From Acidothermus sp. (GTDB taxonomy: Bacteria; Actinomycetota; Actinomycetes; Acidothermales; Acidothermaceae), in NCBI GenBank assembly GCA_023512015.1, contig JAIMAI010000003.1:1-64000 (forward strand): 64,000 nt of DNA, given 5' to 3'. The translations under genes and the position numbers were made by a program. The notes under the pieces were generated by a model. That model was not told where the DNA came from, made no database searches, and saw nothing but the letters and a program-made list of their open reading frames with translations. This document shows positions 27,030-49,255 of this stretch, piece by piece. Numbering within the stretch: the stretch's first letter is position 1; the number at the start of each line of letters is the position of its first letter.

Positions 27030-27094
27030 CGTGAAAGCAGGTACCGGTTCACGCCATGCTCGGCGACCCGGCGACCCGAGAGCAGGAGATCGCG

Positions 27095-46828: not shown

Positions 46829-47452
46829 ATGACCACAGCAGCCCTTCGTCGGCGGCGTCTCGCCCGTGCATTGGCGCCGGCCGTCGGTCTGCTAGCCGCT
46901 GGCCTACTCGTCTGGCAGGGCAGCTACGCAGCTTTCTCGGCCAATACCGATGCCACCAACAACGTCTGGCAGGCCGGCCAACTCGTGCTCACCAACAACG
47001 GCGGCGGCACCACCTATGCCGCGACCACTACCGCAGTGTTCGGTGGAAATCCGATTCGTCCGGGTGACACCGGCACGACGTGTCTCACCGTGAAGAGCAC
47101 CGGCAACTTGAGCGGCACCCTCAAGATGTATCTCGCCTCGCTGGCGGATTCGACGCCGTCTCTCGGGAGTCAAATCCTGCTCACCGTCGACGAGGCGGCG
47201 GTCAGCAGCGACGTCCAAGCCAACTGCACCGGCTTCCCGAGCACCGGGGTGACCAACGTGGCCACCAACGTCTCGCTGACGTCGTTCCCGACTACGTACA
47301 CGACCGCCGGCGGCGGTGTCGCGATCGCCGGAGGCACGGTGCTGGAGGCCTACCGGGTGACCTGGACCTTCCAGACCACTGGGAGCAACGCCAACGACAA
47401 CAACCTGCAAGGAAAGTCCGTCACGGCGGCGTTCCGATGGGAAATCCAGTAA
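46829..47452 (+). CDS. Camelysin/TasA-like secreted protein with SipW-type signal
   Basis: A 207-residue exported protein. The ATG follows GGAGG at 8 bases. An Arg-rich start (LRRRRLARALAPAVG) and a hydrophobic segment lead to SYAAFSANTDATNNVWQAG at residues 32-50. This is the kind of processing region found in TasA and camelysin proteins cleaved by SipW peptidases. The mature part is beta-rich, polar and rich in Thr, Ser, Asn and Gly. In Bacillus such proteins form biofilm fibres; in actinobacteria the role is little known. The next gene encodes a SipW-like peptidase with almost the same processing motif inside it. Family membership rests on the signal region, size and neighbour. Confidence 0.78.
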   Translation: MTTAALRRRRLARALAPAVGLLAAGLLVWQGSYAAFSANTDATNNVWQAGQLVLTNNGGGTTYAATTTAVFGGNPIRPGDTGTTCLTVKSTGNLSGTLKMYLASLADSTPSLGSQILLTVDEAAVSSDVQANCTGFPSTGVTNVATNVSLTSFPTTYTTAGGGVAIAGGTVLEAYRVTWTFQTTGSNANDNNLQGKSVTAAFRWEIQ

Positions 47453-47474
47453 TCACCGACGCAAGAGGCGTGAT

Positions 47475-47504
47475 GGCTCCCGGCCCCGAGGGGGACCGGG
47501 AGCC
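47475..47504 (+). terminator. Strong hairpin between the camelysin-like and signal-peptidase genes
   Basis: GGCTCCCGG and CCGGGAGCC form a 9-base stem that continues inward with CCC/GGG after one mismatch, followed by ACGACTTTCT. It would give more transcript of the secreted protein than of the downstream peptidase if partly read through. Confidence 0.65.
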
Positions 47505-47542
47505 CACGACTTTCTCGGGCCTGATTTAGGGAGGGGGCGGCC

Positions 47543-49255
47543 GTGGCGGTCACCGCCGAACCGATCGACGTCGGCAGGGACGACGCCCGACGCCCTTCCG
47601 GCGGCCGCGCTTGGTTGGTCGGCGGTTTCCTCGCCCGGGCCTGGCTCTGGTTCCTCGCCGGATGCGTTGCCGTGACGTTCGTACCGCTCGCGTTCGGCTG
47701 GCACCCGTACCTGGTCCAGACGGGTTCGATGAAGCCCCGGATTCAGCCGGGGGACGTCGTGTTGGCGGCGCCGCAGCACGATCCGCGAAAACTCGTCGGG
47801 CACGTCACCGTCTTCGTCGACCCCACCCGTCACGGTGAGATCGTCACCCACCGGGTGCTCCGCCTGAACCCCGACGGAACGTTGCTCACCAAAGGGGACG
47901 CGAACCAGAGTCCGGATTCCGCCCCGGTGGCGATGAGCCAGGTTCGCGGCATGGGCCGACTGTTGGTCCGCTGGATCGGACTTCCGGTGCTCTGGGCCAA
48001 GGAGGGCCGGTGGGTGCCGCTCGCCGGCGTCGTGGTGAGCGTGTTGCTGGCCGCCGCTCTGGTGGTCCGGGACCGGGACGAGGACGCCGACGAGGACGAC
48101 GCCGAGCCGCCGTCGCTTCCGGCGCCTCCGGAGGTCCGCGCGGGAGAGGACCACGGCGCCGCCGACTATCGCCCGGTGACCGGGCTCCCCCGGCAGCAGG
48201 ACGACGAGGAGACGGGCGAGCTCGATCCCGGAGTCGCGATGACCTCGGGCGCAGTGGCCGCAGTTGCGTCGGCTCGATCGCGGCGCGGCTACGTCGGTCG
48301 GCATCGCCGTCCCCGGCGAGCGTTCGCGGGAGGGCTTCCGCGGTGGCGGCGGGCGGCGGCCACCATCGGCGTGGCGGGGGTCGGGGGGGCCGGGCTCACC
48401 ATCCCCACCACGCAGGCGGCCTTCTCCGCGGCCACCTCGGCGACGTCCAACACTTGGACGGCGGGGAGCGGCTACAACTACACGGCCGAAGTCAACGCGC
48501 TCGGCCCCTGGCTGTACTGGAAATTGGACGACGCGAACACCACCGCCGCGGATGCCTCGGGGAATGGGCGCCCCGGGGTGTACAACCGCAACAATCGCTG
48601 GACCCATCAGGTGGTCGGCGCGCTTCCCGACCAGACCCCCAACCTTGCGGCCACCAGCGCGGGTTCGGCTCCCGGGGGCAACGTGCCGTGTATTTTCACC
48701 GCGCAGAACGCCGATTTCCTCCCGCCTCCCGGGCCGAGTGTCTACAGTCTCGTCGTCTGGTTCCGGACCGCCCCCGGGTATTCCAACGGGGGAAAGCTGA
48801 TCGGCCTGGAGTCTTCCCGCGGCGCGGTCTCCGACAGCACCGCCGGCGGACAGTACGACCGGATGGTGTACATGGACGGCGCCGGGCATTTGTGGTTCGG
48901 TGTTTGGAAAACCAACCCGGGGGTCGCGGTGGCGGTGCAGTCACCAGCCACCTACAACGACGGGGCGTGGCACATGGCGGTTGCCGTCATGAATGCGACG
49001 ACCGGCATGACCCTCTACGTCGACGGCCAACCGGTGGCCGCCAATGCCAACACGGTCTCCGAGACGGACAACCAGAACATGTACTGGCGGGCCGGATGCG
49101 GCAACCTCGCCGGATGGGGAGCGTACTGGACCGGTCCGAACAATCCCGGGACGACGCAGGCCAATTACCCCTTCGCCGGCAGCCTCGATGAGGTCGCGGT
49201 GTTCTTGACCGCCCTCACCCAGACGCAGATAGCCGATCTGTACTTCTATCGGTGA
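47543..49255 (+). CDS. SipW-like signal peptidase fused to an internal signal sequence and a LamG domain
   Basis: A 570-residue protein of unusual order. Residues ~24-50 are a membrane helix. An S26B signal-peptidase domain follows with nucleophile S62 (QTGSMKPRIQPGDVV) and general base H103 (THRVL), the Ser/His pair of the SipW/ER class, and GDANQSPD further on. A second helix (~157-174) leads to an acidic, probably cytoplasmic stretch. An Arg-rich segment and third hydrophobic helix (~270-289) then end in TQAAFSAATSATSNTWTAG (290-308), almost the motif of the upstream camelysin-like protein. The last ~260 residues are a concanavalin-like LamG domain (LYWKLDD, DGAWHMAVAVM, LDEVAVF). Topology would put the internal site on the same side as the active site, so self-release of LamG is conceivable. 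The start is GTG with GGAGG upstream. Confidence 0.88.
   Translation: MAVTAEPIDVGRDDARRPSGGRAWLVGGFLARAWLWFLAGCVAVTFVPLAFGWHPYLVQTGSMKPRIQPGDVVLAAPQHDPRKLVGHVTVFVDPTRHGEIVTHRVLRLNPDGTLLTKGDANQSPDSAPVAMSQVRGMGRLLVRWIGLPVLWAKEGRWVPLAGVVVSVLLAAALVVRDRDEDADEDDAEPPSLPAPPEVRAGEDHGAADYRPVTGLPRQQDDEETGELDPGVAMTSGAVAAVASARSRRGYVGRHRRPRRAFAGGLPRWRRAAATIGVAGVGGAGLTIPTTQAAFSAATSATSNTWTAGSGYNYTAEVNALGPWLYWKLDDANTTAADASGNGRPGVYNRNNRWTHQVVGALPDQTPNLAATSAGSAPGGNVPCIFTAQNADFLPPPGPSVYSLVVWFRTAPGYSNGGKLIGLESSRGAVSDSTAGGQYDRMVYMDGAGHLWFGVWKTNPGVAVAVQSPATYNDGAWHMAVAVMNATTGMTLYVDGQPVAANANTVSETDNQNMYWRAGCGNLAGWGAYWTGPNNPGTTQANYPFAGSLDEVAVFLTALTQTQIADLYFYR

Follow-up and report, generated by a model that had tools for sequence, protein, structure and literature searches.

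Knowledge of SipW-dependent TasA fibres comes mainly from Bacillus and its relatives. Self-cleavage of signal peptidases is known as well: the signal peptidases I Lep of E. coli and SipS of B. subtilis cut at a site within the enzyme, as a side reaction or inactivation. In the tapA-sipW-tasA system of B. subtilis, TasA is processed by the ER-type enzyme SipW (PMC10269814), and the mature protein begins at residue 28, i.e., the cut lies at A27/A28 (PMC10151520). In the fibres, residues 28-38, directly after the SipW cut, form the donor strand, and F29, I32 and F39 take part in contacts (PMC9674648, PMC10151520). The mature N-terminus of TapA resembles this donor strand (PMC9674648, PMC10151520), and TapA was proposed as the anchor of TasA fibres (PMC9674648). 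A dedicated SipW, camelysin/TasA-type polymers and an accessory protein are also combined in B. cereus (sipW-tasA/calY-capP) and C. perfringens (sipW-bsaA) (PMC13082335, PMC7395162).

A locus comparable to these systems was analysed in Acidothermus sp. (GCA_023512015.1, contig JAIMAI010000003.1, positions 1 to 64,000, forward strand). This 64,000-nt stretch is called the window, and all features given below lie on its + strand. Two genes, each with a GGAGG-type ribosome site ahead of it, follow one another. The first (46829..47452, ATG at 46829, stop at 47452) encodes a TasA/camelysin-like secreted protein of 207 aa, the presumed main substrate and the presumed subunit of a biofilm-type fibre. 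The second (47543..49255, GTG at 47543, stop at 49255) starts 90 bases further on and encodes a 570-aa fusion of an S26B signal peptidase, a candidate internal SipW-class signal and a LamG domain, based on TIGR02228 and PF13385. A strong GC hairpin without a U-run (47475..47504, from strand folding) lies between them and is a possible attenuator; the whole spacer folds at -45.1 kcal/mol with a z of -1.2 against shuffles, so its stability is not above what its composition leads one to expect.

As in B. subtilis, an ER-type signal peptidase adjoins a putative fibre-protein substrate, and the predicted cut falls just before AF. The neighbour may share the TasA fold, and there appears to be a second, minor substrate whose N-terminus is like that of TasA. 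Unlike in B. subtilis, this second substrate is a LamG ectodomain placed in the peptidase chain behind an internal signal. No TapA homologue is apparent in the locus; the LamG ectodomain appears to be unrelated to TapA and is proposed as a functional analogue only. The B. cereus and C. perfringens clusters share the dedicated peptidase, the polymer-type neighbour and the accessory protein with this locus, but there the latter is separately encoded, without LamG and without fusion. The self-cutting proposed here recalls Lep and SipS, with the difference that a conserved cognate signal stands ahead of an ectodomain. A literature search, with most subscription journals outside its scope, found no paper on SipW together with LamG or on a signal peptidase-LamG fusion.

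The peptidase part is, judged by its sequence, an S26B, ER-type (SipW-like) signal peptidase. TIGR02228 matches residues 57-138 (47711..47956) with 52.3 bits, just above the cut-off of 51.85, and by this match the NCBIfam label of the fusion would be "signal peptidase I". The Ser-Lys pair is replaced by the Ser-His pair typical of S26B enzymes, Ser62 (47726-47728) and His103 (47849-47851). Together with D119, D125 and the GDxN...D box, both residues are invariant in 14 of 14 aligned fusions. The Bacillus SipW equivalog NF046067 matches at 8e-10 with 38.5 bits, below its curated cut-off of 190 bits; the enzyme is therefore related to Bacillus SipW but belongs to a different orthologue group. 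The LamG domain, of sugar-binding type, spans residues 401-564 (48743-49234; PF13385, 57.5 bits). An earlier sequence-only reading of this DNA had described a SipW-like peptidase with S62/H103 and a LamG domain, and both descriptions hold, as do its coordinates and reading frames for the two ORFs.

The same reading had called the neighbour camelysin-like. The Pfam camelysin family PF12389 matches it only weakly (E 0.0044, 17.3 bits against a gathering threshold of 22.5) and reaches E<=0.01 in 6 of 19 homologues. The closest likeness in the PDB appears instead to be TasA: in a Foldseek search with the AF2 model, which is of low confidence (mean pLDDT 58.7), TasA entries took ranks 1, 2 and 4 (5of2, 5of1, 8aur; probability 1.0, TM about 0.4-0.5). 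The signal peptide region (46889..46972) matches model positions 4-30 of the SipW-cognate class TIGR04088 (cognate_SipW) with 16.8 bits (E 0.022), where the curated threshold is 19 bits. The same model reports no internal site in those fusion genomes that were searched. The predicted cut A34/A35 (46930/46931) stands in the same register as A27/A28 of TasA. In related loci, one or two TasA-like genes lie near the fusion gene, on the opposite strand in the locus G211, and the adjacent TasA-type protein would be cut by the fusion peptidase.

Hydropathy gives two clear transmembrane segments in the fusion, residues 33-51 (47639..47695, N-in/C-out) and 157-175 (48011..48067, out to in). They are followed by a predicted cytoplasmic linker (48068..48343), first acidic and then an Arg-rich n-region with a charge of +10/-0 over the last 33 residues. 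Among relatives, the linker varies in length and shows little conservation. The third hydrophobic segment (48347..48409) is short, weakly hydrophobic and terminated by a Pro at residue 288; its maximum KD17 of 1.58 is below the level of transmembrane anchors. A short, Pro-containing h-region behind an Arg-rich n-region resembles a signal peptide more than an anchor. By the positive-inside rule, the catalytic domain, the cleavage site and LamG would share the outer face. Hydropathy, linker charge and this rule thus agree with the earlier placement of the internal motif on the side of the active site. The AF2 model of the fusion, with a mean pLDDT of 41.7, is too poor for geometry.

Behind the third segment lies the internal motif, TQA/AFSAATSATSNTWTAG (48410..48466), with the predicted cut A292/A293 at 48418/48419. 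Residues 32-50 of the TasA-like protein, SYAAFSANTDATNNVWQAG, and residues 290-308 of the fusion, TQAAFSAATSATSNTWTAG, are identical at 12 of 19 positions with equal spacing, as the sequence-only reading had noticed. Chance resemblance of the two motifs was rejected by profile tests with shuffled and reversed sequences and by a position-weight matrix. The profiles drew on no sequences other than the N-terminal regions of the 21 TasA-like neighbours; they were run against the remaining 114 predicted proteins in these loci. With the signal-plus-motif profile, 17 of the 19 best matches were peptidase fusions or separate LamG proteins, the match falling on the internal site or on an N-terminal signal of their own. 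When the post-cleavage motif was used alone, the best 12 of the 114 all belonged to these two groups. Under the TasA-like profile of +1..+18, the window site reached 9.3 bits; among 1400 shuffled fusion proteins the top score was 4.8, and no reversed protein exceeded 0.2. Likewise, with a neighbour-derived profile of the 17 post-cut residues, no other position in the fusion proteins scored as high as the internal site. In the position-weight matrix of +1..+17, the window site stood at 25.5, and none of 7188 other positions exceeded 2.7. When the matrix was split, the cleavage side (+1..+4) and +5..+17 each ranked this site first, ahead of more than 7000 others. The hydrophobic helix alone scored no better than shuffles, so that its likeness is indistinguishable from chance and the motif is the significant part. 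A shared origin of the signal module, rather than function, may lie behind the resemblance over +5..+17.

The position of the predicted cut is conserved in the fusions. Residue -1 is Ala and residue -3 is A, S or T in 14 of 14 aligned fusions, whereas other registers within -14..+17 pass the (-3,-1) test in at most 4 of 14. A292 is the sole invariant column between W157 and P322 in these 14 proteins, and its register equals that of A34/A35 in the neighbour and A27/A28 in TasA. Moreover, P2' is aromatic (F, Y or W) in 19 of 20 internal sites and in all 21 TasA-like sites; L056 has Met at P2', and the motif of L063 is degenerate. The P-type enzyme LepB is inefficient on sites with an aromatic P2', a feature absent from all 143 verified LepB substrates (PMC10269814). 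The aromatic P2' of the internal sites therefore points to SipW-type cleavage. These features support the view that the internal motif is a signal of the SipW class whose cleavage site is under selection. The term "processing signal" used earlier is thus sound for the cleavage determinants but incomplete: the shared stretch runs past them over the donor-strand region of TasA, so processing accounts for only half of the likeness.

Fusion residues 293-308 resemble a donor strand. Both window proteins carry AF...W at +2/+13, that is, the TasA-type pattern of an aromatic residue at +2 and another at about +12 right after the cut (compare F29 and F39 of TasA). Since the region of the TasA donor strand falls within the motif, LamG, once freed, may initiate or anchor the fibre in the manner of TapA. 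The simplest reading of the shared stretch is consequently a system like tapA-sipW-tasA in which a LamG accessory substrate is fused to the peptidase. We regard it as fairly probable that this gene pair represents the B. subtilis fibre system in an actinobacterial version, with a self-cutting peptidase and a TapA-like LamG. The first gene product would then be the fibre subunit. The fusion chain would leave the cytoplasm with the first transmembrane segment, fold its catalytic domain outside, return with the second, pass through the cytoplasmic linker and cross outwards again with the signal helix, so that LamG lies outside. The peptidase would cut the TasA-like protein after A34 and its own chain after A292, in cis or in a neighbouring copy. 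The second cut would free the predicted ectodomain, residues 293-570 (48419..49252), with the TasA-donor-strand-like new N-terminus AFSAATSATSNTW, while the peptidase would remain a membrane enzyme. LamG, made 1:1 with the enzyme, would act like TapA, as a minor partner which initiates, caps or anchors the fibre and also contributes adhesion. Cleavage, its assignment to the fusion peptidase, the donor-strand function and adhesion are what we infer from these protein comparisons. More tentatively, and with less than even probability, each SipW may carry its own TapA-like initiator. Autocleavage would then tie the assembly of each enzyme in the membrane to the liberation of a single LamG, as starter or tip, whose donor strand is free. 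Such a self-carried initiator would set the fibre number per enzyme and equip the end of the fibre with an adhesin.

The donor-strand part of the motif, conserved to +17, would also suit a protein that is never cut. The third hydrophobic segment would then be an anchor, and the motif of the whole protein a membrane-tethered donor strand that roots a TasA-like fibre beside the peptidase, in line with the anchoring role proposed for TapA (PMC9674648). We consider this unlikely: an anchor needs neither an invariant Ala at -1, nor a small residue at -3, nor a short h-region, and separate LamG genes bear the same segment as an N-terminal signal. Such split forms were found in G369, G043 and G060, where sipW and LamG are separate adjacent genes and the LamG protein has its own signal of SipW class. 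The LamG protein of G369 starts MSTFAGRHRR...GTHA/SFTAT, and that of G060 carries a TTGA/TYSAS site; in G043 the cleavage site of the separate LamG protein is ambiguous.

The self-processing reading gains from the spread of the architecture. A search for further S26B-LamG fusions, which had been suggested earlier, found them in about 16 actinobacterial loci beside TasA-like genes (genome and related-locus searches), so the protein of the window is no singleton. They belong to several families and more than one class: fourteen loci, the window included, are of the same class and two (G479, G527) of another class of the same phylum. An assembly or frameshift artefact was rejected, given about 16 fusions. 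In G002, of the same family, a possible further fusion is read in two parts, with an N run in the linker. The peptidase-signal layout is kept with other ectodomains in four loci (G077, G093, G437, G474). By eye, L076, L078, L068 and L070 apparently join peptidase and internal signal to FN3-/Ig-like repeats or a short domain. In an S26 tree of 31 rows, the window groups with G029 and G002 (96/94) within a supported clade of nine, and the presence of the extension requires at least 2 changes, counting sampled rows only. On these comparisons, the fusion is best described as an old, modular Actinomycetota family with an exchangeable ectodomain. Because many related bacteria share this arrangement, coincidence is improbable and a genuine self-processing protein probable.

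The adjacent split genes also allow a plainer history, in which the fusion arose from neighbouring sipW and LamG genes and the signal was kept mainly for LamG export, without a special role in self-processing or fibres. In its favour, the Arg-rich region of the window's fusion is preceded by an in-frame ATG (Met233, 48239-48241), with GGAG five bases upstream, from which a LamG precursor could be translated separately. This ATG is, in the alignment, not conserved among the other fusions, and diverged fusions have kept both the cleavage register and the donor-strand-like residues; we consider this history unlikely as well. It is likewise unlikely that a housekeeping P-type signal peptidase, which the genome does encode (TIGR02227, 88.4 bits), cleaves the internal signal and that the fusion merely co-expresses and co-localises two proteins: the -3 and -1 residues would be acceptable to any signal peptidase I, but the aromatic P2', poor for LepB and a mark of SipW substrates (PMC10269814), is present in 19 of 20 sites, which resemble the TasA-like substrate and not generic Sec signals.

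The locus suggests that Actinomycetota have a widespread version of the TasA fibre with protease and accessory substrate in one polypeptide. The fusion would be a simple system for the coupling of fibre initiation, surface anchoring and dedicated signal peptidases. If autocleavage is true, the locus would hold a conserved fusion of protease and substrate, which might also serve as a tool to release ectodomains.

The LamG part resembles solved LamG/ConA-like domains. In L060, L061 and other fusions it is matched by NF052521, "TafC family fimbrial protein", at best with 7.5e-07 and far below the cut-off. A link of this LamG type to fimbriae is possible on the basis of these matches; the literature search found no paper joining TafC with fimbriae. 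A close S26B-LamG fusion, L031 (JANWJC010000181.1), is titled as an Acidobacteria MAG but places among the actinobacterial ones and is probably mis-binned. Elsewhere in the window, an L31-Actinobacteria ribosomal protein leader (Rfam RF03158, 45.9 bits) is located at 27038-27076 (+).
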